Shown here piece after piece: positions 14,424 through 60,100 of a DNA stretch of 64,000 bases. Under the pieces are notes generated by a model that saw only the letters and a program-made list of their open reading frames with translations, did no database searches and had not been told where the DNA came from. This stretch comes from Gigantopelta aegis. Its lineage: Eukaryota > Mollusca > Gastropoda > Neomphalida > Peltospiridae. The stretch spans positions 75,207,627-75,271,626 of the forward strand of contig NC_054706.1 in the NCBI RefSeq assembly GCF_016097555.1, written 5' to 3'. Within the stretch, counting starts at the first letter, position 1, and every line of letters starts with the position of its first letter. A program made the translations under genes and the position numbers.

Positions 14424-14975
14424 CTGTTCAACATGTCCAGAAAGGGTGACGTACCTGTCCCTCCCGTGGGAACATGTAATCTACCGGTACGTGATGCCGT
14501 GTCTGTCCCTGAAGGAGATCTTCCAACAGAGGCTGGTGTGCAGGCAGTTCAAGGAGCTGGTTGACCGCTACTTCCAGCTGACGTTCCTCGTTGACATCAG
14601 TCGCGTGCCTGGCCGCATGACGGCACTGGCCTTCTCCATCATGGTGGACAACAACCGGTGTCTGCGCTATCTGACGCTGCACAATGCCAAGGACTGGCTG
14701 TGTGACCAGCTGCTGCTGCCCGTGTTTGAGAACAATCCTCATCTTCAGAAGCTCGATCTCACCAACTGTTCCAGTCTCACGGAGACCAGCCTCAATGCCG
14801 TGGCTGTTCAGTGTCCACGGTTACGCATTCTGGTCCTAAGGAACTGTCACTGGGTCAGTCCGACAGGCATTTCCATGGTGACGGTGTGTCTGCCGGATTT
14901 AGAGCATCTTGATTTGACAGGTTGCTGGGATCTACAGGATAAAGCAATTATTTCTCTAGTTATGCAGTGCAACAA
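14424..14975 (+). CDS. FBXL15: FBXL15-like exon with F-box and first LRRs
   Basis: Acceptor TTCTGTTTCCCAG/CTG at 14423 and donor AACAA/GTAAGTG at 14976. The outgoing phase leaves AA, completed by the first A of the next exon to lysine. An alternative AG at 14440 has a weaker tract and would shorten the exon by 17 nt. GC content is clearly higher than in the surrounding DNA, as expected of coding sequence. Confidence 0.9.
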
Positions 14976-17086
14976 GTAAGTGTTATTTGTATGTCCGAGT
15001 TATTAAATTTCTATTTGAAAGCCATTTCATTTCACAGTATAACTAACACCATCTAGAAGTCTTGTGACAAGATATTTGTGTTGTTATTTTAGTTTTGTAG
15101 TTATATACAATTAAGAATCCACATCGCTCCAACCTGAGGATTTATTTCAACAGGTTAATAATTAAGATAATTAATTGCTTGTCCAAATTAAATGTAACAT
15201 ATTTTATCATTTAAAAGTTGAATGAATGAATGAATGTTTAATGCCACCCCAGCAAGATGTTATGTATAAAATTACTGTACAGACAACACATTTCTACAAT
15301 AATTGTTTCTCTGATCTCTTTTTATCCTGTCATGTGTGCTCTGTCCGATTTTAGATTGAGATATCTCTCCCCCCCCACTGCCCAGTAATCTTGTGAGTGC
15401 TCTATCGGATGTCAGACCGAGATATCTCTCCCCCCACTGCCCAGTAACGTTGTATGCTCTGATTTCAGACTGAGATATCTCCCCCCCCACACTGCCCATT
15501 AATCTTGTGTGCTCCGATTTTAGACTGAGGTATCTCTCCCCCTATACTGCCCAGTAATCTGCTCCGATTTCAGACTGAGATATCTCTCCTCCTACTGCCC
15601 AGTAATCTTGTGTGCTCCGATTTCAGACTGAGATATCTCTCTCTCTCTCCCCCCCCCCCCCACACTGCCCAGTAATCTTGTGTGCTCCGATTTTAGACAG
15701 GTATCTCTCCCCCTCCACTGCCCAGTAATCTGCTTTGATTTCAGACTGAGATATCTCTCCTCCTACTGCCCAGTAATCTGCTCCGATTTCAGACTGAGAT
15801 ATCTCTCTCTCTCTCCCCCCCCCCCACACTGCCCAGTAATCTTGTGTGCTCCGATTTTAGACAGGTATCTCTCCCCCTCCACTGCCCAGTAATCTGCTTT
15901 GATTTCAGACTGAGATATCTCTCCTCCTACTGCCCAGTAATCTGCTCTGATTTCAGACTGAGATATCTCTCCTCCTACTGCCCAGTAATCTGCTCTGATT
16001 TCAGACTGAGATATCTCTCCTCCTACTGCCCAGTAATCTGCTCTGATTTCAGACTGAGATATCTCTCCTCCTACTGCCCAGTAATCTGCTCTGATTTCAG
16101 ACTGAGATATCTCTCCTCCTACTGCCCAGTAATCTTGTGTGCTCTGATTTCAGACTGAGATATCTCTCCTCCTACTGCCCAGTAATGTTGTGTGCTCCGA
16201 TTTCAGACTGAGATATCTTTCCCCCCACTGCCCAGTAATCTTGTGTGCTCTGATTTCAGACTGAGATATCTGTCTCTCTCTAAGATCTACAGCCTCACTG
16301 ACAATGCTATCAACGTGGTGGCTCACTGCTGCGTCGGTCTACAGCATCTCAACATCCAGGGCTGTTGGCGCATCACCAACGATTCCATCAGGTAGGCAGA
16401 TATGTGCTGTCTAAAACTTTTTTTCTTCTAACTATAGTTGCCGATTTATATCATAATGTATTATTATAATGCTGGTTAACCATTGATTTATTTTATGATG
16501 CATTAATTACTCACCGATATATAATATAATGTATTACTATAATTAAATTTTGCATGTTATAGAAAGAAATGTTTTATTTACTCAACACATTTTATTTACG
16601 GTTATATGGCGTCAGACATATGGTTATGGACCACACAGATTTTGAGATCCGAAACCCAGTACCTACCAGCCTGTAGACCGATGGCCTAACCACGATGCCG
16701 GTTTGCAGGTTAATGACAGATTTATGTTATACTAAATACAATTGATTCACAATTATTTGTGCATTAGATAACTCAAATTTACACACACACTTGCCAGTGC
16801 ACATACACAATTTATTACAACAGATGTAATATATTATGTAAACACATTCCACATTGCACGTTAATCATAGATATATATTATTATGTTTTACTATATTTGC
16901 AGATTACTTGGTGCGTACTGTCAGTGTCTCGAAGCTCTACAAGTGAAGGACTGTCGCGATATTAATGAAATTAGTTTAGCACATCTCCGAGCTCGCGGAG
17001 TCAAGATCGACTGTAGACCGCCACCCGGAACTCAGTATCTGATGTACTTGTCTGAAAATCTACATCAACGTCATCTACAGATATAA
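14424..17086 (+). CDS. FBXL15: FBXL15-like F-box/LRR protein, three exons, start exon missing
   Basis: Spliced exons 14424-14975, 16260-16391 and 16903-17086 join in frame and give about 288 residues. Vertebrate FBXL15 has about 300. The F-box reads LSLPWEHVIYRYVMPCLSLKE. Leucine-rich repeats follow, for example LQKLDLTNCSSLTE, LRILVLRNCHWVS, LEHLDLTGCWDLQD and LQHLNIQGCWRIT. The C-terminus, with RARGVKIDCRPPPG, matches the family ending RKRGVDIDVEPP. FBXL15 is the substrate receptor of an SCF ubiquitin ligase that in vertebrates targets SMURF-type HECT ligases in BMP signalling; here that role is inferred. The frame stays open upstream to 14401 without ATG, so initiation must lie in an unseen upstream exon. 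The gene converges on ZGRF1, with 3.8 kb between the stops. Confidence 0.9.
15330..16259 (+). repeat. Splice-acceptor minisatellite, about 17 copies, 48-70 bp unit
   Basis: Each unit carries TGATTTCAG/ACTGAGATAT, that is the polypyrimidine-AG acceptor plus the first 15-19 coding nucleotides of the next exon, then CTCTCC...CTGCCCAGTAATC. The true exon 2 acceptor at 16259/16260 is the last unit. Copies closest to 48 bp are uniform (15900-16130); others carry C-rich or TC-rich insertions. Some decoys read TTTTAG or have lost the AG (near 15406). Overlapping plus frames such as 15844-16158 are repeat products, not genes. Confidence 0.9.
16260..16391 (+). CDS. FBXL15: FBXL15-like exon 2 of the visible set
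   Basis: Starts after GATTTCAG at 16259 with A completing lysine, then LRYLSLSKIYSLTDNAINVV. This supplies exactly the leucine-rich segment (LRSLSL in vertebrates) that would be missing if the exon began at the later AAG at 16284, and only this start keeps the frame. The donor ATCAG/GTAGGC is at 16392. Confidence 0.9.
16563..16706 (-). mobile_element. Internally deleted SINE in the FBXL15-like intron
   Basis: The tail part (ATTTACGGTTATATGGCG) and the head part (ACCTACCAGCCTGTAGACCG) of the family at 71-443 are joined directly, losing about 240 bp of middle. Confidence 0.8.
16903..17086 (+). CDS. FBXL15: FBXL15-like last exon
   Basis: Acceptor ATATTTGCAG/ATT at 16902, A completing arginine, then LLGAYCQCLEALQVKDCRDI. 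Stop TAA at 17084-17086. Confidence 0.92.
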
Positions 17087-17302
17087 TATATTGACATTTT
17101 TAACAATGGTACCATTAGTTTATTAGAACTGTGAGTAAAACTTAAATATTGTTACTGCTGGCAATGATAGCTAGTCTTGGTGTAAATTATAATATTGTTA
17201 TGGGCTTTCACATGTAATGTCAAAAGTAAGTTATGTTTGTGTACATTTGAGAGTGATGAATATAATATAGGTGGAATGTGCATATTATATTACATATGAT
17301 GT

Positions 17303-17308
17303 AATAAA
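17303..17308 (+). terminator. Candidate polyadenylation signal of the FBXL15-like gene
   Basis: AATAAA about 220 nt after the stop. A second AATAAA lies at 17414-17419. No transcript evidence is available to choose between them. Confidence 0.45.
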
Positions 17309-21128: not shown

Positions 21129-24100
21129 CTTGAAAAAGAACAAAACAAATATAAGCCAAATTGTGTTTATAGCATAACACCCATAGAAACAAGCATTTGT
21201 AGAGTACTGCTAAAGCATACATGTCCCCCACCGGGTCCCAACACATTTTTGTCTATATCTTACAGGGCATAAAATTTGGCACGAACGATTTTGTCGTTCA
21301 TCTGTCGGTTATGCAAAAGCAATATTGACACCAACGACGAATCATTTGTGCAAAAACTATAATCGCTCGTCAGAAAATTATAACTATTTTTGGAATAAAA
21401 TAACAAGAGAACGGGCCTAGCATTGCAGGTATGAGAAGAAAAAACAATGTATATTTTAAAGGTATGTAATAAATGCAGAACCTCACATACGTTATTTTTG
21501 CTTCCTATTTATTGCACACGTTTATTGTGAGCAAGAACATACCACTCGACTGCTACGCAGTCTCATGGTAAATATTCTTGCGCACAATAAACTTGTGCAA
21601 TAAATAGGAAGCGAAAAAAATGTACGTGAAGTTCTGTATATTTATTTACTTTTTGACACCTGTGTGGTTACGTTGAAATATATGTATTAATTCTGAAACA
21701 TGTATGGTAATAAAAACAAGTACAACCGTTGCTAAATCAATTTATTAAAATATGACATACACAGCGAAGAAAATAGTACATTTAATAAGGGACTTTAAAA
21801 TAACGAAGTGGAAATTAGAACATGATGAAACTGAGTTGCAGCATTGATTGGATCGATCGAGGATTCGCAGAACTTCGGGTCTTTCCGTTCAGACCCGGAA
21901 GCTCAGACTATTGTTTGGAGCCAGCAAGTACTCCCCTATAACAGAACCAATGGGGTAGTGTGCTGAAATGTAAATGGCAGCTTTCAAGTTAGTCTCAGCA
22001 TACCAAATAATAATAATAATTTAGTATTTATGATAAGAATTTGGAGAAAAGCTACGAAAATCGCCCATCTTAGATACTCATTTGATTACCGTTGCCGGTT
22101 AACCTTTTCATTTATATCTGAACCACTGAAGAAAATTGTTCGTGCAAACACTAAAACCACACGAACGACATATCGTTTGTCTGAAAAAACCTAATTTTAT
22201 ACCCTGTCCTAAGTTCAAGGACCATAAATGTGAAAAATTTGTAAATTGCTGTGAAAGTCAAACTTTATCTGTAAGGTATATAATAAAGCTATATACAAAA
22301 CTTCAGGTCAATATCTTGAGACATTGTGAAAAACATGCAAAATTAAATTTCATACTGAAGTTTAAGGGCCATAACTCTGTCAAAAATAGTAAATCAGAGA
22401 AGTCAAACCTGATCTGTAACAGTACATGATAATTCTATACACAAAATTGCTGTTCAATATCTCAAGGCATTGTGAAAACAACATCCGGAAAAATATATGT
22501 GAGACAGATAAATGGACAGACAAACGGAGATGAAACCTACAGTCCTCTCTGGTTGGACCGGTAGGGGACTAATAAATCTATGCCAAGAACAGTTTTTAGG
22601 CAACATCAAAAAAGAAAGAAAAAAGAAAAAAGGAGATGTGTCACTAAAATCTGGAGGTGTTAATTTTTGGAATACAATTCTTAATGCAGGAGAAAATGCT
22701 TCAATTTTTTGGGTTTTTTTTTGGCAAAACTGAAAACATGGATGTAGCAAAAGTCTGATTAACTTTCAGTAATAAGACAATACTAATATTTCCTCGAGAG
22801 CCAACCTGTTGGAAGCCTTTTTCTTCAATCAACTCTTAAGGTATTAAACATTAAGTTTAAACTATGGTCATTACCTGACAGAGACATTGGTGGACTTTCA
22901 TTCTCACTGTTTCTTTTGCTTTTTGTGGTTTTCCTAGACATTTCTTGTTTTGTCTTGTGATTATTATGTTCACTATTTGACTCCGGACTCGACTTTAGGT
23001 CAGTGATGATATTTTTAAGTTGTTTCTCCACTCTGTCACCTTTTTGTATGCCATTAGGTTGCTCTGTAAAATGTAGCACTTATTAACATTCTTAAAATTT
23101 AATACGCATTTGGTAAATAACATTATATAGTCATTTTATTATATGTATAATAGCATAATGTGTAAATGACAGTTCAACTTGAGTTCATGCTTTGAGAAAA
23201 TAAGATGGCTGCATCTACTGAATTCAGTGAGGTATACAAGTGTAAGAAAGAAAGAAAACAAAAGAAAACTGGAAATAAGTTTAAGTTGGGAAGGACATTT
23301 AAATTTATTTTAAATCTGTTTTTTGGAGATATGTACAAACAAAAATACTACATGCATGTCCATTAGGTACCAACTCTTTGCCACTAATGTGGTATTCTCT
23401 ATTGAAATAGTCAAGTGTTAAAAATAAATTATATATTTGCAGGACAAGTTTCTATTAACAAGATTCACCACAAATGAATGATTTTTAAAAACCTGCTTTT
23501 GCCACTCAAGTTACTTTTTAATGAAGCCATGCAGGTGTGTGTTATGAACAGTTTTAACTAGACAAGATAACATCTTAAGTACAGTAAGTATAAAAGTATA
23601 AAGATGGGATTGACAAGTGACAGACCTTCACAGTAAGTATAAAGGTATAAAGATGGGACTGACAAGTGTCAGACCTTCACAGTATGTATAAAGGTATAAA
23701 GATGGGACTGACAAGTGACAGACCTTCACAGTAAGTATACAGGTATAAAGATGGGACTGACAAGTGACAGACCTTCACAATAAGTATAAAGGTATAAAGA
23801 TGGGACTGACAAGTGACAGACCTTCACAGTAAGTATAGAAGTATAAAGATGGAACTGGCAAGTGACAGACCTTCACAGTAAGTATAGAAGCATGGGCGTA
23901 CATAGTGGGGGGGTTCGATGGGTTCGACTGAACCCCCCCTGAAATCGCTTTTTTTTATAATTTAATATATCTGACATTGATATCTGACATTATTATATAC
24001 TCAAATAGAAATATATGCCCAATATCTCTGCAATCTATTTTGGAACCCCCCTTTTCAAAACTCAACATAGAAATATATGCCCAATATCTCTGCAATCTGT

Positions 24101-27100
24101 TTTGGAACCCCCCTTTTCCAAATCCTATGTACGCCCATGAGAAGTATAAATATGGGACTGACAAGTGACAGACCTTCACAGTAAGTATAAAGGTATAAAG
24201 ATGGGACTGACAAGTGTCAGACCTTCAATGCAAGTATAAAGATATAAAGATGGGACTGACAAGTGACAGACCTTCACAGCAAGTATAAAGGTATAAAGAT
24301 GGGACTGACAAGTGACAGACCTTCACAACAAGTATAAAGGTATAAAGATGGGACTGACAAGTGACAGACCTTCACAGTAAGTATAAAGATGGGACTGACA
24401 AGTGACAGACCTTCACAGCAAGTATAAAGGTATAAAGATGGGACTGACAAGTGACAGACCGTCACAGCAAGTATAAAGGTATAAAGATGGGACTGACAAG
24501 TGACTGACCTTCACAGTAAGTATAAAGGTATAAAGATGGGACTGACAAGTGACAGACCTTCACAGCAAGTATAAAGGTATAAAGATGGGACTGACAAGTG
24601 ACAGACCTTCACAGCAAGTATACAGGTATAAAGATGGGACTGACAAGTGACAGACCTTCACAGTAAGTATAAAGGTATAAAGATGGGACTGACAAGTGAC
24701 AGACCTTCACAGTAAGTATAAAGGTATAAAGATGGGACTGACAAGTGTCAGACCTTCACAGTAAGTATAAAGGTGGGACTGACAAGTGTCCTTCACAGTA
24801 AGTATAAAGGTATAAAGATGGGACTGACAAGTGACAGACCTTCACAGTAAGTATACAGGTATAAAGATGGGACTGACAAGTGTCAGACCTTCACAGTAAG
24901 TATAAAGGTATAAAGATGGGACTGACAAGTGACAGACCTTCACAGTGCTGCAAGACCTTTGCCCACAGACTGTTACGTGACAGGTTCTTCAAGTTGCCCA
25001 CAATCAACAGATGATGTCTGGCTCGGGTTAGAGCAACGTTCATCCTCCTAAAACAGAAAATCTTACACATTCATAGTGTATTTTAAACAACAATTCTTCA
25101 GAATTCAATATTTAGTGCACTGTTATGAACATCCATTGGTGCAACTATAAACCAAGTTTTACTGACCTAGGACATATAGTGTGTGAAAAACTGATCTACA
25201 CATGAAACCGTAATGCAAAAGTTGACGCAGCTGCCACTGCCATCGGAAATGTAAAAACCTATATCTCACTTTTTCACAAGCGAGAAATTTTTTATGAAAT
25301 CTGAAATTCAGTTAAAACTTTTTATTAATGAATTTGAATTCTGTAAGTCTTGTATATTCTAAATTCTGTGTTGTAAAATATACATAAATCCAGCTGCTAA
25401 TTGTATACAAATTTCAATGAACCTTTTAGTGTTGAAGATTAATTTATTATATAACATTTAGTTTTATCTCTTAAAAAATATCAGTGAAATAAAAGTGTGA
25501 TCAGTCACTCAGTGACGATAACACATTTTAGAGTGAAAAATTCACTCTAAAATGTGTTATCATCACTGTAAAAAGTGTTATCTTCACTGTAAAAAAGCTG
25601 GAACTATTTTGCTGCAGGCATTTTAAAAATAAAGGTAAATTGCCAAAAGTTATATAATAAATAGAAAATTTCATGTCAAATATGATTTATATCTCATCTC
25701 GTGAAGTTTGCAATCATATCACACTCGTTGTGCAAGCAACTTCACTCGATGAGACAAAAAACATGAAGTATCCTCTATGTATTCATGTGCATGTGGGAGT
25801 AGAAAGGTAGTGTTGGAATGTACAAAACACACACATGGACAGAGGATAAAATAGAGACAGAAAACCAAGTTCTAGAGTAAGTACATCTGGACTGTTATCC
25901 ATGGTAAGTGTCATACAATCAGATGTCTCAATGACAAACATGAAGATCATTCCTTACTTGTCACTGTCTATAAATCCCAAGCTGTTTGATCTGACACACG
26001 ACAGGATGATGATATCTCTCTCCCCACCTTGAAATGCATCCACAGTAGAAACCTGAATCACTTTCAGCTCTTTGTGTTTTGAGAGTCTAAAAAAATATAA
26101 TCTTAGTACCAAACCAAACATCTTAATGGGAAATACTAGAGTCACTCATAATTCTTTGTGTTATTACCTTAAGATCAAAACCCTAAACAATCTTTGGACA
26201 AAAGAAAAATACTTGGACAAGAAGTCATGGACAATGATTAGTGTCGGTAATTATGTCGATATCTCCAGTCGCAGTGCATTCATTTGTTCTGGTCAGTGTC
26301 CACAAATGATATATCAAAGGATGTGGCAGGTGCTTGGACTGCGTGCCAAGTAAAGTGCACACAAATGAGTTACTCTAAACTAACTAGAAGATGCAACCCC
26401 TGGGACAGTTGTGAGTTTCTTTTCTAGGAAACTGGATTACTAATATTACTAATTATATATAATATCTGACATTTTCAGTGCAATCAAAGTAAGTGATATT
26501 TTTCAGATCACATACTTTAAAAATTTGATAACTTTGCAAATTAGATGTAAATTAGTCGAGGTCTCGGCACTAGGTTTATTGACATTTAAGCAAACGTACT
26601 TGGGTGACACTCCATGATTGACGTATGCATTCATAGTCATCAAATAAAAACATTTCAATGGCAATTTGACACTGAAAGCTGTCCAGCGTTCAGAAAACAA
26701 AAAACGTTAGGCATAACTTTATTTTGATGTAAGGACATCCAAAATGATGTCATTCGAGTTTGACGTCATTTCCATTCAAAAATACACTGCGCCACATATT
26801 CTTACGTCCTTTGAATATCTAGTAATGGCGGACTGGAATTAAAGTTGCGTGTACAGTTTACAAAAACACGTTGTATTAAGCTTGAGATTATATGATAAAG
26901 AGATTATTACCCTCGTGTATTTTGCCATCGTCAATATCATATATTAGGAAGAAAAATAATGTATTATGCTCGCCAGAGGCTCGCATAATACAATTTTTAT
27001 TCCTAATATATGATATTGACGATACTGAAAAACACTCTGGTAATAACCTCTGTATATCTAAAACCACTAATAATAAACAGAGCTGAGAGGTTGTTAAAAT

Positions 27101-30100
27101 TATTAATTTCCATCTGCTCTTACTGCTGACAAAATTATTCTGAAAGAAAACACACTCAGTCCATGACTGAACATGATGACCAATGGGAAATCATTAATGA
27201 ATCCCAATAAAATATGAGTTTTTTAATATAAAAAAAATCAACCAAATCTATGATAAATTAGTCAAGGTTGATATGTTACATATTAAAAAACATTAGTAGT
27301 GCATTCTCTTTATTCTATTACACATTTAAAATAACATTTTAAGATATTTTGTAATCACAGTTCTAAAGTCGCCTCCATTGGTAATATGACATCATCGCAA
27401 TTAACACAAATATAGTTTGACTTCACACACTGTAACGAAATCTTATGAAAATGTTATGCTCAGGTATACAGATCTTGTTGGATAGCAAAAAAGTATATTA
27501 ACCGGGTTAATAATGGTAAATATCAAATGGGTTTATGACATGGATATTATGGGCAAGTTAGTTACTAATGGTAAATATCAAATGGGTTTATGACTTGGAT
27601 ATTATGGGTAAGTTATGGGACAAAACAAAATTGACATGTAAAGATGTACCTGCTACTATGAAGTAGCGCCATAACCTTGAACACTTGTGCCTTGTACAGT
27701 GTGATAACGCCAATCATAGCAGGCTCCACCCCCTCTGCAATCAGAGTGTCAACCATGAGTACAACAAGCCCCGCCTCCTCTTCATTATAGTAGCTGCCTG
27801 ACCCATCGTCACATTCCTTCCCATGAGCGACGTCATAGAAACACAGCGTGGGGAATGTTTCCTATAATTAGAATACTAGTCTTAAAATGATACTGAAATT
27901 TATAATTTAATAACCTAATATTTTAAAAAAAGTATTTACTGTAAAATACTTTATTTTCGCGGGAATAAATTTTCATGTTTTAATGAAAATTAGTTCATTC
28001 GCGAGCATCTATTTTCGCAAATCTCCCATCCCTTCCCCAGTAAAAATAAAGTATTTTACAGTACTGCGTTATGTCAAGTTGACAGTAAAAATGTATTGCT
28101 GTATAATACCAATCCCAAAACCACTTATTTTGTGATGCTTATAATTTGGTTAAACTTAATAACAATTCTGCAGTAATCTAGGTGCATAGTGCTTGAGTGA
28201 AACATAATTCCTACTGAGTGAAACATAATTCCTATTAAGTGAAACATAATTCCTACTGAGTGAAAGATAATTCCTACTGAGTGAAAGACATTCCACATTC
28301 TTGTTCTTTTGTTACAATATGTTTACATTAACCGTTTTTCTTGTTTTAAAATCTCAAAGCAGATAATAATGAAGTACATCAGGTAAAATAGATGTTAAAA
28401 TGTGCTGAATAAGCAACTAGCAGAGTTAGGCTTATGACTGCTGGTAAACAGCAAAACAAATAAGAATCATGGAATAATATTTAGTACAATTCTTTTACAG
28501 AACAAATAATGGTTAAAACACATTATAAAGATTCAACATCTGAATCCATGTATTACATTCTAGCAAAGGAAATAGAGGTGATACCACAACACCAAGTTGT
28601 ATGACATTTAAATGCATTGAGTAATGGTGATACCTGTACCTCAATACTAATTTTCAGAACTGGTTGGTGTGAATGTTTCTGGTTTCTACTCACAGAAAGA
28701 GGTTGACGACTTTGTTGAGAAACTCCGTCCTGCAGCACCCCATTGTAGAACAAGTGGTTAGAAATAGCACTTATTAGTGGATGACATCGGTACTGAGTAT
28801 GCAGGACGATCGGGGAGTATCCCTTCAAAACAAAACTTAAAGTTACTCTTCGATTGATCCTGCTCTAATATACATCTTCAGTAATAGAAATAAGCAGAAA
28901 GGTTCACTAATCCACCGCACAAGTAAATCTAGAAATCTACTTGTCCACCAATATTTTCACTTGTCCACCGCACAAGTAAATCCACCATTATTTTCACTTG
29001 TCCACCGCACAAGTAAATCTAGAAATCTACTTGTCCACCATTATTTTCACTAGTCCACTGCACAAGTAAATCTAAAAATCTACTTGTCCACCAATATTTT
29101 CACTTGTCCACCGCACAAGTAAATCTAGAAATCTACTTGTCCACCAATATTTTCACTTGTCCACCGCACAAGTATATCTATAAATCTACTTTTTTACCAA
29201 TATTTTCACTTGTCCAAATAAATGGTTTTTAATTTTTTTTATTGAAGTACAAGGAAGATGTTTTTGATTGCTCAAACTGAAAATGCATTGGACATTTTTA
29301 CTTGTCCACTGGACAACCATTGAGATACATTTTGCTTGTCAGAGCAGATTTGCACTTGTCAGGACAAATGGACAAGTACTTATTTCGACCAGTGATCTCA
29401 ATTTACATGAAACAGCAAAGTAATATAACATTAAACAGATGAAAGTTACTCTGGACAAAAAGAAAAATCTGGAAAACTGAATGGTCTTTTAAAAAAAAAA
29501 AAGGAGTCATTGTGAGCTTTACATTAAGAATATGACAGAAACAGTTTGTAAGTATCTCAAGAATCCAGAATATAGGGAAAATGCAAAGGTTTTTCATCCA
29601 TTAGACACCATTTATCTCAACTCGTTTAAAAATGTATCCGCTTGCTTTTGCTCATTAGACACAATTTCAAACAACAAGATAAATGGTATTTAATGGCCAC
29701 TCATGTAGTATTCTTTATGTATTGTTTACTTAAAATACAGCAGATTTCACAATGTTATGTTAAACAATATTGAGAGATTACACAGAGTTAATTGTAATAA
29801 TAATGGACACACACACACACACACACACATTCTTCACATCTGCAATTATATTGTCAAACAGAGTCTGCTATTATCGTTATATAACACACTGATTCAATAC
29901 AGCACTCAAAATTTTCTTCAGTCTGTCAAACAGAATCTGCTATTATCGTTATATAACACTCTGATTCAATACAGCACTCACCATCTTCATCAGTCTGTCA
30001 AACAGAGTCTGCTATTATCGTTATACAACACTCTGATTCAATACAGCACTCACCATCTTCATCAGTCTGTCAAACAGAGTGCTATTATCGTTATATAACA

Positions 30101-42100: not shown

Positions 42101-45100
42101 TGGAAATGGCTCACCACTGGCATAATAGTCATTCATCTCGAAAATGTCGACCAGAAATCGGATGATAATTGAGAGAAGAAAGCTTTTCCCAGCCCCGAAC
42201 ACACCTGAAATTAATGTATAAAGGAATAGTGATGTTTCTTTATTTTACATTGTGCATGTGTGTATCAAGTTTGGCTGACCTAGCTTTTAGAGCAAGAAAG
42301 AAAATTAGTGAGGGAGAGGAAAAGGAGGGAGAGAGAAAGAAACACATACACACACATCCAAACACAGAAAGAGAGAGAGAGAGACCCACCCCCCCCCCAA
42401 GAACCTGCTTCTGCCATACTAACTACTCAAACTGACAGTTCATACCATGACCTTTGATGTACCAGTAGTGGTGCACTGGTTGTATGGGGAAATAAATCCT
42501 CAAGTAGACTAGGGGTGAATGATCCTGGAACCCACCACATTTCAGGCGAGTGCTATACCACTGAGCTACATCACACCCAACCCTTGAATGAAGACAAAAC
42601 TTACCATGCACAAGAACAATGGAATCCGTTTGAGTTTCGTCCACATTAATCATGGCAGCTATCTTCTTAAGAGCTTGTGCCTGGTCCGAGTTCAGTTTGT
42701 ACTTGTTCATATAGTCACCCGCTATCTCCGTCTGCAAGTAAAATATTCATTCAGTAGTTTTCTTACTGCTTAGAATGACCTAACTGTAATATTTCTTACA
42801 CATCCATTGGAGAGAACATGTGACATTCGTCTTATCACATGGCAACATCCCACATATGTGGGACCTTGATTTAGAGACATACCATTGGCAGCTCTGTCTA
42901 ATGAAATTAACAGTACTGAAACTGATTGCTGTCCAAGTATAAAGTAACTCTGCAAGCACACTAAATAAGTAATAGTTTTAAAATACATTTAAATGTCTTT
43001 TAAACCTAGGTTTTGAGGATAAGTAAGAATACTACACTAAACTTACATTCGGTTAAAAACATATCCAACACATTTTTGCTCACTAGTTACATCCTGAAAC
43101 AACTTGTTCTAAGACAGATGTATTTAACAGTTACTCATCACAATGAGGTCTTCAGTCATTTTACTTTCTCATCAAATATGATTATAAATCTGCTGCTATG
43201 TGAATTACATGTCGGTGACAAAATACCGATGCAACAATACGTACGACAAAATGACCTGGAACCTGGAGTTTCTTCTTGGATACATCTTTCTGAACTGGAA
43301 CTGTGAAGTCCTTGCTTTTGTAATTCTTTTCAGACCCTCTGAAATAAGAGACTGCTGTGTTGTATTTCACATATTATTGATATGAACAGACCACAGGGCC
43401 CGAACGTAAGAATTTGTTACCTAAAACAATTTTAAAATGGTTTTGCTATAGACAAACTATTTGCAACAATTTTTTAGCCTGCATACAGCAATTTTAAAAC
43501 CAATAACAAATTAAACACAACTTAAAAAGCAAAAGTTATCCCCTCAACCTACGGCAATAATTTTTAACTAGCAGCAAAACACTACCATTGTTAAAGCTCC
43601 TGAGTTACTGTAATTCACATTGCAGCTACTGCAATTGCAGTGAAGGACATTGTTAAGTGTAAGTCCTGAGAGTAGTTACTTATTTGTTTAGACAGTGTTG
43701 AGAAACAGGAAGTGTGATCACTTACATCAAGACTTGAAACTGACAGGGGCAGGCAGCTAATGTCGATCAAAAGGCATAAAATGCTATCTGACAATCAACT
43801 TCACAAGCAGGTTGTACTGTTCATCTTATTTTTGACAGAATTCCAGATAAATGGGGAATTCTTGATTTTCAGGACCAATAATATAAATTGTATGCATAGG
43901 TCAACATTTGACTCAAGTTCTGAACATTTACGAGAATGAGAAGTGAGATCACTTACATGTTGAGAGGGTGTGAGAGAATGGGAAGTGAGATCACTTACAT
44001 GTTGAGAAGGCATGAGAGAATGGGAAGTGAGATCATTTACATGTTGAGAAGTTGTGAGAATGAAGTGAGATCACTTAAGTGTTGAGAAGGTGTGAGAGAA
44101 TGGGAAGTGAGATCACTTACATGTTGAGAAGTTGTGAGAATGAAGTGAGATCACTTAAGTGTTGAGAAGGTGTGAGAGAATGGGAAGTGAGATCACTTAC
44201 GTGTTGAGAAGGTGTGAGAGAATGGGAAGTGAGATCACTTACATGTTGAGAAGTTGTGAGAATGAAGTGAGATCACTTAAGTGTTGAGAAGTTGTGAGAA
44301 TGAAGTGAGATCACTTACATGTTGAAGTGGTGTGAGAGAATGGGAAGTGAGATCACTTACATGTTGAGAAGGCGTGAGAGAATGGGAAGTGAGATCACTT
44401 ACATGTTGAGAAGGTGTGAGAGAATGGGAAGTGAGATCACTTACGTGTTGAGAAGGTGTGAGAATGAAGTGAGATCACTTACATGTTGGGGTGGTGTGAG
44501 AGAATGGGAAGTGAGATCACTTACATGTTGAGAAGGTGTGAGAGAATGGGAAGTGAGATCACTTACGTGTTGAGAAGGTGTGAGAGAATGGGAAGTGAGA
44601 TCTCTTACATGTTGAGAAGTGAGAGAATGGGAAGTGAGATCACTTACATGTTGAGGAGTGAGAGAATGGGAATTGAGATCACTTACATGTTGAGGTGGTG
44701 TGAGAGAATGGGAAGTGAGATCACTTACATGTTGAGAAGGTGTGAGAGAATGGGAAGTGAGATCACTTACATGTTGAGAAAGTGTGAGAGAATGGGAAGT
44801 GAGATCACTTACATGTTGAGAAAGTGTGAGAGAATGGGAAATGTGATCACTTACATGTTGTGGTGGTGTGAGAGAATGGTAAGTGAGATCACTTACGTCT
44901 TGAGAAGGTGTGAGAGAATGGGAAGTGAGATCACTTACGCGTTGAGGAGTGAGAGAATGGGAAGTGAGATCACTTACATGTTGAGGTGTGAGAGAATGGG
45001 AAGTGAGATCACTTACATGTTGAGGTTTGAAAGAATGAGAAGTGAGATCACTTACATGTTGAGAAGGTGTGAGAAAGAAGTGAGATCATTTACATGTTGA

Positions 45101-48100
45101 GGTGTGAGAGAATTGGAAGTGAGATCACTTACATGTTGAGAAGGTGTGAGAATGAAGTGAGATCACTTATGTGTTGAGATGTGAGAGAATGGGAAGTGAG
45201 ATCACTTACATGTTGAGAAGGTGTGAGAGAAGGGGAAGTGAGATCACTTACGTGTTGAGGTGTGAGAGAATGAGAAGTGAGATCACTTACATGTTGAGAA
45301 GGTGTGAGAGAATGAGAAGTGAGATCACTTACATGTTGAGAAGGTGTGAGAGAATAGGAAGTGAGATCACTTACATGTTGAGAAGGTGTGAGAGAATGGG
45401 AAGTGAGATCACTTACATGTTGAGAAGGTGTGAGAATGGGAAGTGAGATCACTTACATGTTGAGAGGGTGTGAGAGAATGAGAAGTGAGATCACTTACAT
45501 GTTGAGAGGGTGTGAGAGAATGAGAAGTGAGATCACTTACATGTTGAGAGGGTGTGATATAATGGGAAGTGAGATCACTTACATGTTGAGAGTGTGTGAT
45601 ATAATGGGAAGTGAGATCACTTACATGTTGAAGTGGTGTGAGAGAATGGGAAGTGAGATCACTTACATGTTGAGAAGGCGTGAGAGAATGGGAAGTGAGA
45701 TCACTTACATGTTGAGAAGGCATGAGAGAATGGGAAGTGAGATCACTTACATGTTGAGAAGTTGTGAGAATGAAGTGAGATCACTTAAGTGTTGAGAAGG
45801 TGTGAGAGAATGGGAAGTGAGATCACTTACGTGTTGAGAAGGTGTGAGAGAATGGGAAGTGAGATCTCTTACATGTTGAGAAGTGAGAGAATGGGAAGTG
45901 AGATCACTTACATGTTGAGGTGGTGTGAGAGAATGGGAAGTGAGATCACTTACATGTTGAGAAGGTGTGAGAGAATGGGAAGTGAGATCACTTACATGTT
46001 GAGAAAGTGTGAGAGAATGGGAAGTGAGATCACTTACATGTTGAGAAAGTGAGAGAATGGGAAGTGTGATCACTTACATGTTGAGGTGGTGTGAGAGAAT
46101 GGGAAGTGAGATCACTTACGTGTTGAGAAGGTGTGAGAGAATGGGAAGTGAGATCACTTACGCGTTGAGGAGTGAGAGAATGGGAAGTGAGATCACTTAC
46201 ATGTTGAGGTGTGAGAGAATGGGAAGTGAGATCACTTACATGTTGAGGTTTGAGAGAATGGGAAGTGAGATCACTTACATGTTGAGAAGGTGTGAGAAAG
46301 AAGTGAGATCATTTACATGTTGAGGTGTGAGAGAATGAGAAGTGAGATCACTTACATGTTGAGAAGGTGTGAGAATGAAGTGAGATCACTTACGTGTTGA
46401 GATGTGAGAGAATGGGAAGTGAGATCACTTACATGTTGAGAAGGTGTGAGAGAATGAGAAGTGAGATCACTTACATGTTGAGAAGGTGTGAGAGAATAGG
46501 AAGTGAGATCACTTACAAGTTCAGAAGGTGTGAGAGAATAGGAAGTGAGATCACTTACATGTTGAGAAGGTGTGAGAGAATGGGAAGTGAGATCACTTAC
46601 ATGTTGAGAAGTGAGAGAGAATGGGAAGTGAGATCACTTACATGTTGAGAAGGTGTGAGAGAATGGGAAGTGAGATCACTTACATGTTGAGGAGTGAGAG
46701 AGAATGGGAAGTGACATCACTTACATGTTGAAAAGGTGTGAGAGAATGGGAAGTGAGATCACTTACGCATTGAGGAGTGAGAGAATGGGAAGTGAGATCA
46801 CTTACATGTTGAGAAGGTGTGAGAATGGGAAGTGAGATCACTTACAAGTTCAGAAGGTGTGAGAGAATGGGAAGTGAGATCACTTACATATTGAGAAGGT
46901 GTGAAAGAATGGGAAGTGAAATCACTTACATGTTGAGAAGGTGTGAGAGAATGGGAAGTGAGATCACTTACATGTTGAGAAGGTGTGAAAGAATGGAAAG
47001 TGAGATCACTTACATGTTGAGAAGGTGTGAGAGAATGGGAAGTGAGATCACTTACAAGTTCAGAAGGTGTGAGAGAATGGGAAGAGAGGCTGGCTGTAGG
47101 TTGTCCTGTATGTTAGCCATACAATTCAGCTCAGTAGTGGCGTTTCCCGCCAGAATCGCATGACACACACCTGTAGAAAAAACAGAACCTTTCTTGTAGA
47201 CAGTCTCTATTACTGTTCATTTATGTAAAGTGCTATTAATGCTAATTGTTATAGCTGTCTACCAGAGAAAAATAATACATTACAAGTGACTGATTCATGG
47301 ACAACAGTCTCTATGAATAAAATCACCATTTGTAATTTGAAGCATTTTTATTGCTTAATAATATACTTGGTAACCAATTTATCATACATATTAACTGAAA
47401 ATTGTGCAGCTGAACAAGCCTTTGTGTGAAATATTGTGCATTGCATTATATGGGTTATATCAGTAAAAGTGTTTTTATCCCACTGTGTACACTTACATTC
47501 ATTCGACCAGTTGGATGGTGAGAATCCAGAGACAGGGTCTATTTCCAACTCGTTGGCGGCATTCGGACCAAAGTACATGCTCTTGGCTAGGAATGTTGTG
47601 CCAGTCTCGAAGTTTAGATTCTGTGACATGATCCACAAGTCATCTAAAACATACATGAAATCCAAATAAAATATGTCCACAGTTCAAACAAACCAAAGAG
47701 ATGTTCATGAAAAAATTCATTATTTTAAAAAGAAAGCTGTTTAAAATGCGTGTTTTAAATGAAATGCCAAAACAGTTATTTTTATTACATATTTAGAATT
47801 AATGATTATGATTTGGTCTGACATTTCCAATACGTTTTAACATGCCACAACATAACGTGTCCACAGATTTATAATTATATATGTACTATGCAGTGTATAA
47901 ACCTTTCAATGACAATACGTTTTAACATGCCACAACATAACGTGTCCACAGATTTATAATTATATATGTACTATGCAGTGTATAAACCTTTCAATGACAA
48001 TTACAAAGACAAGTCTTGTATACATGTTTCAGCTTCAAACTGATCAACGGAATTCAGTTTTTATGCATGATGTTAAGTCTGTGTTTAGACCTTGTCTCCA

Positions 48101-51100
48101 TTAGCATTAGTTTACTGACAAAAACATGTTATGTGTTACTTAATTTTACTTCTTTTAGATTCTGAGAATACTAAACATATATTATGGATGAAGCTATTCA
48201 GTCGACATGCTATACTACAACAATAAAGTTAATGAGTACAGAACTGGCTAACCCTTTGAGAACATTGAAGAAGCTGCCTTTCTTGAAAGTCGAATGTACA
48301 TTAATTTCTTCTCTGTCATCTCATTCTGCCGTGCCCATGCCTTAATATGCAACATCAAACACCAAAGAATATCATATTTTTGTAATACAAAACTTAATAC
48401 ATATGCTAAATACACTACGGTAAATTATCTCAAACACAGAAAAGCAATTTGCAAGGGATAACACTACAATAGACTCAAAGACCTTCTGTAGTATCACCAA
48501 CATACTTACAGGATATAAAACAAGCTTCCGTTTCATATCATGTTTATGTCCCGAGTGAAAATTATTTCACGAGGGACATAAACATGATACAAAATGGTAG
48601 CAAGTTTAATATCCTATTTATTACCCATAATCGATCTTAATTTATATCACTCAACTCGTTTGGTTGTCGTTCCTCTAAGATTGTAGTGCGGCAATTGATG
48701 ACGTCAAAGTGTTAGTCCCACTTGGCATTCTAGTGGGACGTATCACTTTGATATGTACCGAGATATTTTTAACCATATGAATAATTAAACATATTTCATC
48801 ACAAAAAAGCCTCAATCGTCTGATTTACAAAGAGAAGCACCTTATTATGTAATCACTGGCGGTAAATTTGTGCATCAAATACCGAAGTATTCAAAATAAA
48901 CAAGGAAAATGTAACGACTATTGTTTTTATAGTTTTGAAACTTTTATTATCTCGACTTCATGTAAAATTCTTTAATCTCATTGGTTGTTTGCCGTTGGAC
49001 AAATCCCTTATACCCCTGTGGGCGTAGCCAAATTCTCTTATACCCAGTCTGTAATTTCCAACAGTTTCCAGCCACCCCAGTTAATGCTAAAGCAATAATT
49101 AGATTATAAATAAATAAAGTTTTTTTAATTTTTATTAATATCTGTATTACAAACATTTGAAGTTAAAAACTCGTTTATCGATGGAACTATTTTTCGTCAC
49201 TGGCAAGTGGTTTCATTCGCGTCTGCATGTTAACAATTATTGTCTTGGCTGGCCAGTCTCGAAGTTTTGATTATTAAAACATACATGCTATATGGTTCAA
49301 ACAAACATGTCGGCAAGAAAGCTAAAATTGTTTTAAATGAAATGCCAAAACAGTTATTTTTATTACATATACACAAGATTATGTTGACATATTTTACATA
49401 TATAATGTCGGCAAGATAAATTCGTCTGCGGGACTCGGGGCGTAAAAGAACCCACACAGAAGGTACATAAAATTATAAATAAATAAAGCCATATACCCCT
49501 CGTGATGCTTCTACAACTTATACATATATTTTTATTAATGCCAATGGATAAATAACTCACAGGAAATCCCTTGGTTAAACTTTTTGCCAATGGATAAATA
49601 ACTCACAGGAAATCCCTTGGTTAAACTTTTGTTTCTGTAATGTGTTGGAATCTTCCTAACGAACTGACATTCACAGAAGAACATGATGCTGTGACCTCGG
49701 AAAAATGTTGTTATGCTGTCCGCATCATTGAGTCGAATACCGCTGGATGCAGGGCCCCCTCTTACCGACTTTCTCACCTGATCAGCCCACTGGAAAAACT
49801 GAAAAATATATATTCAGTGATATGAAAATAACACTGGGCAAAATATATTCCAACCTTAGAAATAAGTTGGTGCCCCGTAACGTCAATTAAAGTTTGTTTT
49901 TGTTTAACGACACCACTAGAGCACCTTGATTTATTAATCATCGGCTATTGGATGTCAAACATATGGTCATTTTGACATAGTCATAGAGAGGAAACAAGTT
50001 ACATTTTTCTATTAGTAGCAAAGGATCTTTTATATGCACCATCCCACAGACAGGATAGCACAGGCCTTTGAAATACCAGTCGTGGTGCACTGGCTGGAAC
50101 AAGAAATAGCCCAATGGGCCCACCGATGGGGATCGATCCTAGACCGACCTGTGCATCAGGCGTGCACTTTACCACTGGGTTACATCCTGCCCCTCCATTG
50201 TCAATTAGTGCCATTTTCATGATTTTCGAAAGCAAGTCTGTCTTGTTGAATACGAACCTGCTATGCTTGTAAAATCTTTTATTTCCATCTAAATTTCTAC
50301 CTTTCTGACATAAATTACATCCAATTTGTGTCCCATAGGCCAGGTAATTGGATTTCCAGGTATTATCATTTCAAAATTGTCCACGGGGAGGCACTACGTC
50401 AGTGGACTACGTACCAGTGGCACTTAGATGTCTTCCTATTTAGCCACTGATCCATGCTGGTTCAGAATTATTGGAAAGGACTGGACAAAAATCTGGAAAT
50501 ATTGGCAGGATTTCTGAAAGTAACAGTTAACTGAGAGTTTTCCATCAAAGAACAAGAACAGTTTCTGAGCAGCCGTATGATCTGAAATTGCCGACAAATC
50601 CAGTTGATTTTCATATCTGTAGCTGAGCATTGTCATACTAATGGTGACATCATAACAAAGTTCATATGTAAAAAACAATGTATTTTGCGATTATTCGAAT
50701 GAATGACTGTTTAACGACACCCAAGCCAAAAAATAAAGATTGGTTATTAGGTGTCAAACAAAGGTAAGCACATCAATATATGACATTATTCAATCAAGAC
50801 ATGACCAAAGAAATATATAAAAACTATTTAACCTCAAGACTAATCTGGGTACATAACTGGAATACCCTATTTATACCTTGCACTGCTGAATCTTGGGTGC
50901 GCTGCAGGTGTAAAAGAATCGTCCTTTGTTTGGTCCGGCTTTCTTCACCTGCACCATCTTGGCCGACACTCCACACTGACAGCGAGGATTTGAGTTGGCC
51001 TGGCTGGTCTCCCTCAGACACTTACTGCGATCTGCACAAACAAAAACAATATAAATTGTAGAGGGCATCATGAGGGGTTTATGGATTTTTATACCCTCTG

Positions 51101-54100: not shown

Positions 54101-57100
54101 ACTCACAATATTGTAGAATACTGCTAGAGCTGGCATTCAAATGTTCTACTCTACCTGACTATTGTAGAACACTGCACGAACTGGCCTTCAAATGTTCTAC
54201 TCCACCTGACTATTGTAGAACACTGCACGAACTGGCCTTCAAATGTTCTACTCCACCTGACTATTGTAGAACACTGCATGAACTGGCCTTTAAATGTTCT
54301 ACTCCACCTGACTATTGTAGAATACTGCTAGAGCTGGCCTTCAAATGTTTTACTCCACCTGACTATTGTAGAATACTGCACGAACTGGCCTTCTAATGTT
54401 CTACTCTACCTGACTGTATTAGAACACTGCTAGAACTGGCCTTCTAATGTTCTACTCTACCTGACTATTGTAGAACACTGCTAGAACTAGTCTTCAAATG
54501 TTCTACTCTACCTGACTATTGTACAATACTGCTAGAACTAGTCTTCAAATGTTCTATTCTACTTGACTATTGTAGAATACAGCTAGAACTGGCCTTCAAA
54601 TGTTCTACTCCACCTGACTATTGTAGAACACTGCACGAACTGGCCTTCAAATGTTCTACTCCACCTGACTTATTGTAGAACACTGCATGAACTGGCCTTT
54701 AAATGTTCTGCTCCACCTGACTATTGTAGAATACTGCTAGAACTAGTCTTCAAATGTTCTACTCTACCTGACTATTGTACAATACTGCTAGAACTAGTCT
54801 TCAAATGTTCTACTCTACCCAACTATTGTATAATACTGCTAGAACTAGTCTTCAAATGTTCTACTCTACCCGACTATTGTATAATACTGCTAGAACTAGT
54901 CTTCAAATGTTCTACTCTACCTGACTATTGTAGAATACTGCTAGAACTAGTCTTCAAATGTTCTTCTCTACCTGACTATTGTAGAATACTGCTAGAACTA
55001 GTCTTCAAATGTTCTACTCTACCCAACTATTGTAGAATACTGCTAGAACTAGTCTTCAAATGTTCTACTCTACCCAACTATTGTAGAATACTGCTAGAAC
55101 TAGTCTTCAAATGTTCTACTCTACCCAACTATTTAGAATACTGCTAGAACTAGTCTTCAAATGTTCTACTCTACCCAACTATTGTAGAATACTGCTAGAA
55201 CTAGTCTTCAAATGTTCTACTCTACCCGACTATTTAGAATACTGCTAGAACTAGTCTTCAAATGTTCTACTCTACCCAACTATTGTAGAATACTGCTAGA
55301 ACTAGTCTTCAAATGTTCTACTCTACCCAACTATTGTATAATACTGCTAGAACTAGTCTTCAAATGTTCTACTCTACCTGACTATTGTAGAATACTGCTA
55401 GAACTAGTCTTCAAATGTTCTACTCTACCTGACTATTGTAGAATACTGCTAGAACTAGTCTTCAAATGTTCTACCCTACCCAACTATTGTAGAATACTGC
55501 TAGAACTAGTCTTCAAATGTTCTACTCTACCCAACTATTGTATAATACTGCTAGAACTAGTCTTCAAATGTTCTACTCTACCTGACTATTGTAGAATACT
55601 GCTAGAACTAGTCTTCAAATGTTCTACTCTACCCAACTATTGTAGAATACTGCTAGAACTAGTCTTCAAATGTTCTACTCTACCTGACTATTGTACAATA
55701 CTGCTAGAACTAGTCTTCAAATGTTCTATTCTACTTGACTATTGTAGAATACAGCTAGAACTGGCCTTCAAATGTTCTACTCCACCTGACTATTGTAGAA
55801 CACTGCACGAACTGGCCTTCAAATGTTCTACTCCACCTGACTATTGTAGAACACTGCATGAACTGGCCTTTAAATGTTCTACTCCACCTGACTATTGTAG
55901 AATACTGCTAGAGCTGGCCTTCAAATGTTTTACTCCACCTGACTATTGTAGAATACTGCACGAACTGGCCTTCTAATGTTCTACTCTACCTGACTGTATT
56001 AGAACACTGCTAGAACTGGCCTTCTAATGTTCTACTCTACCTGACTATTGTAGAACACTGCTAGAACTAGTCTTCAAATGTTCTACTCTACCTGACTATT
56101 GTACAATACTGCTAGAACTAGTCTTCAAATGTTCTATTCTACTTGACTATTGTAGAATACAGCTAGAACTGGCCTTCAAATGTTCTACTCCACCTGACTA
56201 TTGTAGAACACTGCACGAACTGGCCTTCAAATGTTCTACTCTACCTGACTATTGTAGAATACTGCTAGAACTAGTCTTCAAATGTTCTACTCTACCCAAC
56301 TATTGTAGAATACTGCTAGAACTAGTCTTCAAATGTTCTACTCTACCTGACTATTGTAGAATACTGCTAGAACTAGTCTTCAAATGTTCTACTCTACCCA
56401 ACTATTGTAGAATACTGCTAGAACTAGTCTTCAAATGTTCTACTCTACCCAGCTATTGTATAATACTGCTAGAACTAGTCTTCAAATGTTCTACTCTACC
56501 TGACTATTGTAGAATACTGCTAGAACTAGTCTTCAAATGTTCTACTCTACCTGACTATTGTATAATACTGCTAGAACTAGTCTTCAAATGTTCTACTCTA
56601 CCCGACTATTGTAGAATACTGCTAGAACTAGTCTTCAAATGTTCTACTCTACCCGACTATTGTAGAATACTGCTAGAACTAGTCTTCAAATGTTCTACTC
56701 TACCCAACTATTGTATAATACTGCTAGAACTAGTCTTCAAATGTTCTACTCTACCTGACTATTGTAGAATACTGCTAGAACTAGTCTTCAAATGTTCTAC
56801 TCTACCTGACTATTGTAGAATACTGCTAGAACTAGTCTTCAAATGTTCTACTCTACCCAGCTATTGTATAATACTGCTAGAACTAGTCTTCAAATGTTCT
56901 ACTCTACCTGACTATTGTAGAATACTGCTAGAACTAGTCTTCAAATGTTCTACTCTACCTGACTATTGTATAATACTGCTAGAACTAGTCTTCAAATGTT
57001 CTACTCTACCCGACTATTGTAGAATACTGCTAGAACTAGTCTTCAAATGTTCTACTCTACCCGACTATTGTAGAATACTGCTAGAACTAGTCTTCAAATG

Positions 57101-60100
57101 TTCTACTCTACCCGACTATTTAGAATACTGCTAGAACTAGTCTTCAAATGTTCTACTCTACCTGACTATTGTAGAATACTGCTAGAACTAGTCTTCAAAT
57201 GTTCTTCTCTACCTGACTATTGTAGAATACTGCTAGAACTAGTCTTCAAATGTTCTACTCTACCTGACTATGCTGCAGAACGCTGCTCGCGGAAACTGAA
57301 CTAAGAAGTGGATTTTGGAATTTTCCTCTCAGTCTTCCATAACTCAGTGATGTACTGGACACGGGAACTGTGATCTTCGAATCTTGGTTAGTACAAGACT
57401 GCGACTCATCAAACAGAATCGGACTCTTTCTGTGACCACAATCTGCAGCAACACTCACTAAATGCTGAGATACATTTTTTTCTGAATATACCAGTTTTTT
57501 AAGTGAGTGGTTTTCATCCCGATCTTTCTGTAACATAAGAGGTTCATCATATTTTTTGTTCTCAGTGTTTGTAACAGGTGGAGATATCCGTGTTTGAACA
57601 GACTTCCTATTTTGCACAACTCTTCTTTTATCTTGAAATAAAAATCTGTCAGATTGTGTCCCCGAGTGACTCTGGTGCATCATGGATGATGGAGAATTGT
57701 TCAGATCCATGACTGGACTAGAATTAATAGAACACACACAGTCTGTCCTCTGTCGCCCAGAGTTATCGCTCATTGGACTGGGGGTATGTTGAATGATAAA
57801 GTAAGACTCTGTCAGCTGGCTTTTTGGAACCTCCGTGTTTTGATAATGTATGTCACTGGAATACTGAACATCATCGAAGTTAGAATTAGTCCTTTTTGCA
57901 GCAATTCCAAAATGCTTTGAAACTTTGTTACTTTGTTTTTGTAAGACAGAATCAAATTCTAGCATCCCTTCTTCATGTTGCAAATATTGTTCCCATCTTG
58001 ACTTGGTTTCTAGTTGATCTTCCTCAGTGTTATCCACATTAGGATATTCAAGTATCTGATGTGATGTCCGAAAACCACTGTAAGAATTCTGATAGTCTTT
58101 ACTGATGTTTACTCGACTTGGTTTATTACACAATTCATCAACAAAACCACTCCTTGTACCAAAATAATTCTCTTTCACCTCCTCATAACCAGGAACATCA
58201 AAGTCCTGTGAACATAAATTATCATTACTTTCATTCAACAAAGAAAAACAAGCTTTGCTTGGTTTTGTTGTAATTTGATCTAGATGGTTTCTTTCCAAAA
58301 CATGAGCCTTAGTAGCATGATCTTCAAATGTACGAGTAATGATCTGCTTATTTTCTGAATTTATTGCTGCCATGATATTAATTTCTTTCTCAAACTCCAC
58401 AAGTTCATTATCAGAAGTGTTCTCATCTTCAAAATTGTGCGTTTGTTTTTGATCTTCTTTGTCGATATGCAAAAACGCTGCATTATCACCTGGGTCTGGT
58501 TGTTGCTCGTCCTGGGATGATGTCGAGTGGTAAGTGATGAAGGTTGTGTGAGTGACATCATCATCAAATGGCTTAGTTTTCAGGGGTTTCCTAGGCCACT
58601 GAGATCTAGTCCTTGTACCTTCAGGACAAGTCCCATCTTTTGACTGCAATACCTCTGGTGAATCACTACAATCTAAATCAAACAGAATTACAATCATGTA
58701 ACAAAAGACAAATCAAATCATGCAAAGTCTTATCTCTGACATGTCAGATTATATACTAAAACATATCACTGAATGGTTAATCTAGATGGCACATAAATAA
58801 TACTACATGAGTGACCATTAGATAATGAGTTGTTTAAAAATATATCTAATGAACGAAAGCGAATTCAATATCTATTTAAACAAGTTGTAAGATAAATGGT
58901 ATACGACGAATGGGAATGAATTGAATTTCTTACCCATCCTCAAAAACCAGGTTTAAAATAAATTTACAATATTTAGTCAACTAAAACATTTACAGCCCTT
59001 GCACATGCAGTTATCTTATGCATTCCAGAGCAATCAGTTTCAGCTTCCCATATGTCAAAGAGCTATCAATTTTGATTGTGTTTAATTTAGTGGATAGTAT
59101 GGCTGTGGTGACTGGTTTGTCAACTAGGAGCAGCCAATCATATGTCTTTTATACTGATAACACACATCTTAACGTCATGTGCTATAAATAATGAACAATG
59201 TTCTCACTAAGCAAAATAATCTGAAAACCCCCAAACAAACCTGAAACACTGGGCACTTGTTGACAGATGGACGGACTCTGATTTCTGACAAGGGACATAA
59301 TCCTGTCTACATGAGGCACATGACAAACCTGATAAAAAAATAGAAAAAAGAACAGACTTTAATAAAAACAAATACATTCGGACTGTAGTCAGTTAACCCT
59401 ATTCAAGTGGATAACATTTCAAGAAGTCTACATATCTTTTCATATTATTGCTAAACAAAAAGTTTGGTCTTTTCATGTCAAATAATCAATGAATTATATC
59501 ATTTCTGCTAGCTTTCACTTTGTTAGACAGTTCTACTTCTCAGTTAACAAGAATATTACGTAATAACAAGAGTAAGATAATGACAGATCTACAGCAAACT
59601 ATCAACAACATGACAGTAAAAACAAGTCTCATACATTCTGTTTCTGACCAACACAGACGAAGTCATCAACAAACTTTGGCTTCCCTTCATTCCAGTCCAC
59701 ATAAAAACTGTCTTCATTGTGGAAATTATCTGAAGTTGGAGAGAAAAAGATTTCAAACCTATAAATATAAATGTAGTTGAAGACAATAACTGTATAACAT
59801 AATACAATAGAAACTGGAATGCCTATTTCAATTTAATCTGTAAATAAGAGAAAACCTAGACAAGAAATGTGAACAGTAACAGGATTGTGAGGTAAATAAA
59901 GTTACAATACTTAAAATATATAGACGTCAGTTAACAATATCTTAAATGCAGTGATGTTATTCCAAAAATAAGCTAAGTGCATCGTTGTCATTTAACATGG
60001 ATGTCCCTTGTTCTTCAACATAACTGGAACAACTACTGTGTTACTCCACCTACAAAGCTGTCTGTTGTTAACAAAACCCTTCTTAATTCATCTTAGCTGG

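Follow-up and report, generated by a model that had tools for sequence, protein, structure and literature searches.

Minisatellites that straddle splice junctions in genes of the gastropod Gigantopelta aegis

A stretch of 64,000 nucleotides (hereafter the window) from an 81.6 Mb chromosome of the 1.15 Gb Gigantopelta aegis genome raises the question of why its largest tandem arrays have units that run from coding sequence across a splice site into an intron. The GC content of the window was 0.333-0.415 in 4 kb steps. Two genes were found: the plus strand carries one that we take to be FBXL15-like, and the minus strand a helicase gene that we take to be ZGRF1-like. Pfam matches confirmed LRR parts in the former and a GRF zinc finger and AAA_11/AAA_12 in the latter. 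Two overlapping open frames resembling a retroelement, perhaps Penelope-like, were also present on the minus strand at 11594-12620 and had no Pfam match. Additionally, a short interspersed element with the translation GLGSIP(I/V)GGPIGLFL recurred in introns on the minus strand (50002-50370 and 53165-53302).

The earlier note had claimed that six of the largest arrays have splice-junction units. Tandem Repeats Finder recovered all six where they had been placed, as the six longest arrays in the window, and BLASTN alignment of each junction with its own intron confirmed the copies. In the FBXL15-like gene, exon 1 (14424..14975, plus strand, 5' limit approximate, with LRR matches) ended at the donor CAACAA/GTAAGT (the slash marks the exon edge), and exon 2 (16260..16391) was preceded by an acceptor-spanning array at 15330..16275 with a 48-70 bp unit and approximately 17 copies (17 aligned); the true acceptor lies after 16259, and the first 15 or so nt of exon 2 belong to the repeat unit. 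The other five arrays were on the minus strand, in the ZGRF1-like gene. The large exon 6 (57264..58712, an open frame whose acceptor end is approximate) had the donor AGTCAG/GTAGAG and an array of a 51 bp unit at 54109..57271 (approximately 62 copies, 61 aligned), in which the exon portion of the unit was 24 nt, or 8 nt without gaps. Exon 13 (47056..47170, donor GAACTT/GTAAGT) was followed by an array of a 42 bp unit at 43932..47088 (approximately 76 copies, 76 aligned, exon portion 33 nt), and exon 22 (35611..35694, donor AAGCTG/GTGAGT) by an array of a 70 bp unit at 29852..35642 (approximately 82 copies, 82 aligned, exon portion 32 nt). The donor of exon 26 (24938..25047, CTGTGAAG/GTCTGT) was spanned by an array of a 49 bp unit at 23581..24946 (approximately 22 copies, 22 aligned, exon portion 9 nt) with one interruption at approximately 23887-24143. 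At exon 20 (37838..37915), the acceptor TTTTAG/CAACTG, read by eye and placed with joined-protein alignments, was spanned by an array at 37881..39543 with a 96-140 bp unit, nested 23 bp repeats and approximately 14 copies (14 aligned, exon portion 35 nt); the frame of this exon needs a GC-AG intron at 37838 with the donor CCT/GCAAGT, a sequence also read by eye. In every array, the repeated tract began within the exon, crossed the splice site and extended into the intron, with an exon part of 8-35 nt overall.

A gene-model error, with the true exon edges elsewhere, we regard as highly unlikely. For four of the six junctions, protein alignment backed coding sequence as far as the exon edge. At exon 22, the join was well inside a gapless alignment to UPF1, and the join of FBXL15-like exons 1 and 2 was well inside a gapless alignment to FBXL2. 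The alignments at exons 20 and 26 stop near the join, which leaves such an error more room, but coding sequence was aligned up to both junctions: the exon 20 acceptor join was one residue inside the UPF1 alignment, and an AAA_11 match in which residues 3-83 corresponded to profile positions 175-255, with equal lengths in protein and profile, extended over it, and at exon 26 the alignment reached the donor and ran only approximately 3 residues beyond. The donors of exons 6 and 13 are also open to this objection, as they rest on site scores and on an open frame ending just beyond a good donor; for exon 13, we also presume a likeness to human ZGRF1. A first gene-finder run was overfitted and was replaced, and the stricter setting of the second run dropped some donors (for example, that of exon 6 and one at 49607).

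The junction unit was terminal in all six arrays and the remaining copies were intronic, as the earlier note had described; since coding constraint alone would keep the coding copy at the end, this arrangement is no separate clue. The units of the six arrays were unrelated to one another (best cross-match E of approximately 0.3), and all 38 genome matches of the exon 22 unit were at its own locus, in agreement with the claim that the arrays were born independently. A dispersed satellite or introner, with the same unit at many loci, was thus not found in the genome-wide search with the exon 22 unit or in the cross-comparison of the six units. Of 11 window arrays (period of at least 20, at least 3 copies, overlapping rows merged, and a row at 27504-27588 with a 61% match omitted), 6 spanned a junction compared with approximately 0.95 expected by chance; the P value of 1.3e-4 is optimistic because the window was picked for looking odd, and the junction and intron totals behind it are estimates from the gene model.

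One tract appeared to capture an early state of such an array. At 49539..49630 on the minus strand, a 46 bp unit (24 nt of exon and 22 nt of intron) was present exactly twice with 100% identity, over a donor predicted by the looser gene-finder setting. The break points had 0 nt in common and thus no microhomology. This single case, with its predicted donor, looks like a birth stage; it resembles a recent blunt tandem duplication more than the product of slippage between direct repeats. Away from junctions, a perfect 85 bp two-copy duplication was present in an intron. We also observed a duplication of 51 bp, or 17 codons (2.2 copies, 98%), at 63369-63480, in a large open frame at 62196-63998; coding sequence has in-frame duplications too.

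Exons of other genes in the same genome were chosen by Pfam family, blind to repeats, and comprised 30 myosin, 60 kinesin, 20 SLC6 and 20 kinase loci. The myosin loci were the top 30 of 80 matches as ranked by the search; the others were taken in approximate E-value order from matches that lacked stops and had a small open frame (of those listed, 60 of 124 for kinesin, 20 of 98 for SLC6 and 20 of 136 for kinase). Eight of the 30 myosin loci were dropped for in-frame stops (L006, L014, L017, L018, L019, L021, L022 and L026). A low site score, or no site, excluded 18 donors and 16 acceptors out of 122 each, which left 104 donors and 106 acceptors. For the myosin exon L013, the best structural relatives were molluscan myosins (3i5f, 1dfk, 1dfl and 1b7t, presumably from squid and scallop). 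Junction-spanning arrays were present at 13 of the 210 sampled junctions. Nine were at donors (L004, weak; L007; L063; L119; L122, weak, with 7 nt of exon; L124; L136; L141; and L149), and four were at acceptors (L113, diverged, with 1.9 copies by Tandem Repeats Finder and three diverged copies by eye; L149; L154; and L157). The restriction to two adjacent genes in the earlier note was therefore too narrow, as such arrays are present in many genes of this genome.

L099 and L137 lay outside these counts. Decayed copies were seen at an acceptor in L099. In L137 (C10:85632602-85633306), a 45 bp array of approximately 7 copies, near positions 383-705, was found at the donor CTCAG/ATATCCTTT, which was not scored as GT and which we take to fit the U12-type AT-AC consensus; minor-spliceosome junctions thus seem to be affected as well. 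L062 (C2:492000-499000), an integrin-beta-like EGF gene, which we presume to be integrin-like, showed three successive junction arrays by eye, at two acceptors and one donor (exon portion approximately 40 nt); it was found through a donor-motif search and hence not blind. No spanning array was present at another 20 donors, 19 of which scored well as sites; two arrays among them started 2 and 13 nt inside the intron. In one myosin intron (after ...NPIME), the paralogs L025/L004 and L178 on C1 and C5 had different arrays by eye; the unit spans the donor in one and starts 2 nt inside the intron in the other. The long arrays of L013 (43 bp x 35) and L031 (51 bp x 26, acceptor score low) stopped 5-9 nt before the acceptor and did not enter the exon.

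The positions at which arrays start revealed a moderate excess centred on donors, and junction arrays formed no exclusive class. Array coverage 60 nt inside the exon was found for 1 of 104 donors and 0 of 105 acceptors, and at -20 for 7 of 104 donors and 4 of 104 acceptors, compared with 6-11% at 20-160 nt into the intron. Since exons exclude arrays, array starts are a fairer comparison than coverage at probes. In the intron beyond 30 nt, there were 0.39 starts per kb, a background drawn mainly from 22 myosin loci, the sole ones with long flanks, and one that transposons in intron interiors may lower. The exon side had 1.37 starts per kb in the automatic list and 0.94 after curation; this was a visual check that followed the automatic count and covered only the exon side, with intron-side starts left uncurated. 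Of the 16 automatic exon-side starts, six were removed because the array or copy was on the intron side (L013, L016 and L151), the acceptor or donor was misplaced (L150 and L158, respectively) or there was no array (L067), and L119, whose start at -61 is just beyond the bin, was added. The resulting 11 starts compare with 4.6 expected (P of 0.008 by Poisson and 0.018 by the conditional test). In the donor zone from -60 to +30 (approximately 1.3 starts per kb), 12 starts were found against 3.7 expected, an approximately threefold excess (P of 4e-4 by Poisson and 1.6e-3 conditional); the weak arrays of L004 and L122 are counted among these 12 and among the nine donors above, and excluded from the 11. 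On the exon side, donors alone had 7 starts against 2.3 expected, and for acceptors the curated count gave no significant excess (4 against 2.3, P of 0.2). Relative to the 30-114 nt zone alone, the joint exon-side excess was less than twofold (0.94 versus 0.54 starts per kb), whereas donors compared with adjoining donor-side intron had 7 starts in 5.8 kb versus 1 in 8.4 kb.

These counts bear on the reading that junctions are not special, namely that arrays are abundant, selection clears them from exons and an extreme window was picked, which we consider rather unlikely but worth taking seriously. Arrays as such are ordinary in the introns of this genome, since of 6129 control positions in introns, 728 (approximately 12%) were within arrays. 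A probe test without array edges on the first 62 loci, in which 3 of 109 junction probes had at least 2 extra copies versus the same approximately 12% of intron positions, counts against a naive claim of enrichment. The non-significant acceptor excess and the absence of spanning arrays at the 20 further donors also fit this reading. A genome-wide count of a donor-motif pattern (922 + 679 matches versus 1619 + 1520 for a reversed control) opposes enrichment at face value; we judged it uninformative because matches count copies and not arrays, and because the reversed motif, a poor control, resembles a tetranucleotide microsatellite. Four arrays were read among the motif matches listed: that of L062, a coding gene with junction arrays, and those of L032, L034 and L036, without a clear coding exon at the array edge. 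Against this reading stand the six of 11 arrays in the window, the blind donor-zone excess and the near absence of starts in the adjoining donor-side intron. As the earlier note had held, overlap of arrays with junctions was greater than by chance, both in the window and at donors in the blind sample. The process focused on splice sites that the earlier note had proposed held only partly: at donors, at approximately threefold, and not significantly at acceptors.

The remaining alternatives concern the cause of the arrays. Selection for donor and acceptor clusters, for robust or alternative splicing, would explain why nearly all copies retain GT or AG (62 of 62, 76 of 81 and 62 of 66, for instance), and two downstream repeat units of human IFI6 act as donors (PMC4526556). 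However, when splice-site columns were ranked among windows of their own unit, the copied splice sites showed no more conservation than other parts of the unit in the seven arrays of usable depth (rank 0.00-0.66; an eighth had 2 units), so that selection on the copies was not seen, and read-through past the first donor soon reached a stop in exons 6, 13 and 26. We therefore find no support for this claim of the earlier note and regard it as very unlikely. Transcription- or R-loop-coupled slippage starting at splice sites would fit the clustering of starts around donors, but it appears improbable: GC skew on the coding strand, calculated for 17 units, ranged from -0.73 to +0.53, with both signs, which leaves a simple R-loop cause unsupported, and 10 units folded as DNA no better than their shuffles (z of -1.5 to +0.9). 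A model in which introns are created by tandem duplication of exon sequence (the Rogers model) shares with our arrays units that carry exon sequence and a splice site (PMC4974935). An intron at profile position 435 is common to two myosin paralogs; its donor has an array in L007 and none in L008, and this one intron is therefore older than its array. We regard it as most improbable that the introns themselves were created in this way.

We favour the explanation that these are intronic minisatellites formed in place from tandem duplications that straddle exon edges and amplified within the intron, and that donors are a moderate focus of their births; we consider it probably correct. The founder would be a tandem duplication of 40-105 bp that happens to straddle an exon edge, most likely made by replication or by repair and fill-in of staggered breaks. 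Duplication over a donor or acceptor would be tolerated, as the outermost site could still be used with the protein unchanged. Later growth by unequal exchange or slippage would be free within the intron, and tolerated duplication followed by such growth would leave one coding copy at the end and all others in the intron. The donor excess itself may be mutational. Births are frequent throughout the genome and moderately concentrated around 5' splice sites. Repair templated by a splicing intermediate is neither needed for this explanation nor shown.

The earlier note had presented the arrays as a new-looking repeat class; this does not stand, as identical geometry is already known from chicken. 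Hron et al. (2026, Genome Biol Evol) described 'sequence stuttering' or 'exon stuttering' on chicken dot chromosomes (PMC12954441). In chicken, 190 of 236 affected introns were on dot chromosomes, out of 5,572 dot-chromosome introns; the exon part was 20-187 bp (median 36), with 1-44 copies and spans of 112-23,555 bp, and more than 90% of sources were within 1 base of the exon border. The authors speculate on GC-richness, G4 or meiotic conversion; the link to GC-rich dot microchromosomes is given there as context and is not among the authors' three main features. Imperfect tandem repeats, tens to hundreds of bp in size, fill introns in chicken and mollusc alike; in both, the unit reproduces an exon edge together with the donor or acceptor, from a source at the exon border, and exons are intact, with copies in the adjacent intron and purely intronic arrays alongside. 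The strictly local origin described for chicken was also found here for the exon 22 unit, and the six units are unrelated. Intron length varies between individuals in the chicken account, while the likeness in the mollusc is one of geometry, taken from one assembly. The mollusc differs in its contigs of 42-121 Mb (among those sized) and in the 33-42% GC of the window, and the association with GC-rich microchromosomes was not found. Exon GC was 0.495 with arrays and 0.477 without (P of 0.30), so no GC link was seen. No G4 motif was found in 13 sampled loci with junction arrays, and the FBXL15 array had two G4-pattern matches on the minus strand, at 15670 and 15834, in C-rich stretches.

A minisatellite with multiple splice donors in human IFI6 (6-16) was reportedly described by Turri et al. 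in 1995. As in the mollusc, its units include a splice donor and lie next to an exon; it differs in being a single locus, and in RNA its downstream units serve as donors (PMC4526556), whereas the mollusc arrays are known from DNA alone. Intron gain by tandem duplication likewise involves a duplication that includes an exon edge and a splice signal, but it makes a new intron (PMC4974935), and here the array enlarges an existing intron in the one myosin case. We found no report of such junction arrays in a mollusc in the open-access literature. The class itself is thus known from chicken exon stuttering and human IFI6; what is new is its occurrence in a mollusc, on large AT-rich chromosomes and without a GC link, together with a perfect two-copy birth stage.

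The phenomenon reported for chicken in 2026 is hereby extended to a mollusc, in which it is common on ordinary AT-rich chromosomes. This weakens an explanation by GC, G4 and microchromosomes, and the cause becomes testable in an invertebrate. It is possible, although we hold it only tentatively, that tandem duplications in animals generally tend to arise at exon-intron borders, and most of all at 5' splice sites. Such a hot spot would depend on neither GC-richness nor G4 nor microchromosomes and would act on U12- as well as U2-type introns, and minisatellites seeded repeatedly by junctions would drive intron growth. The arrays show a route by which introns grow with the protein unchanged, and they supply many duplicated splice sites for alternative splicing.
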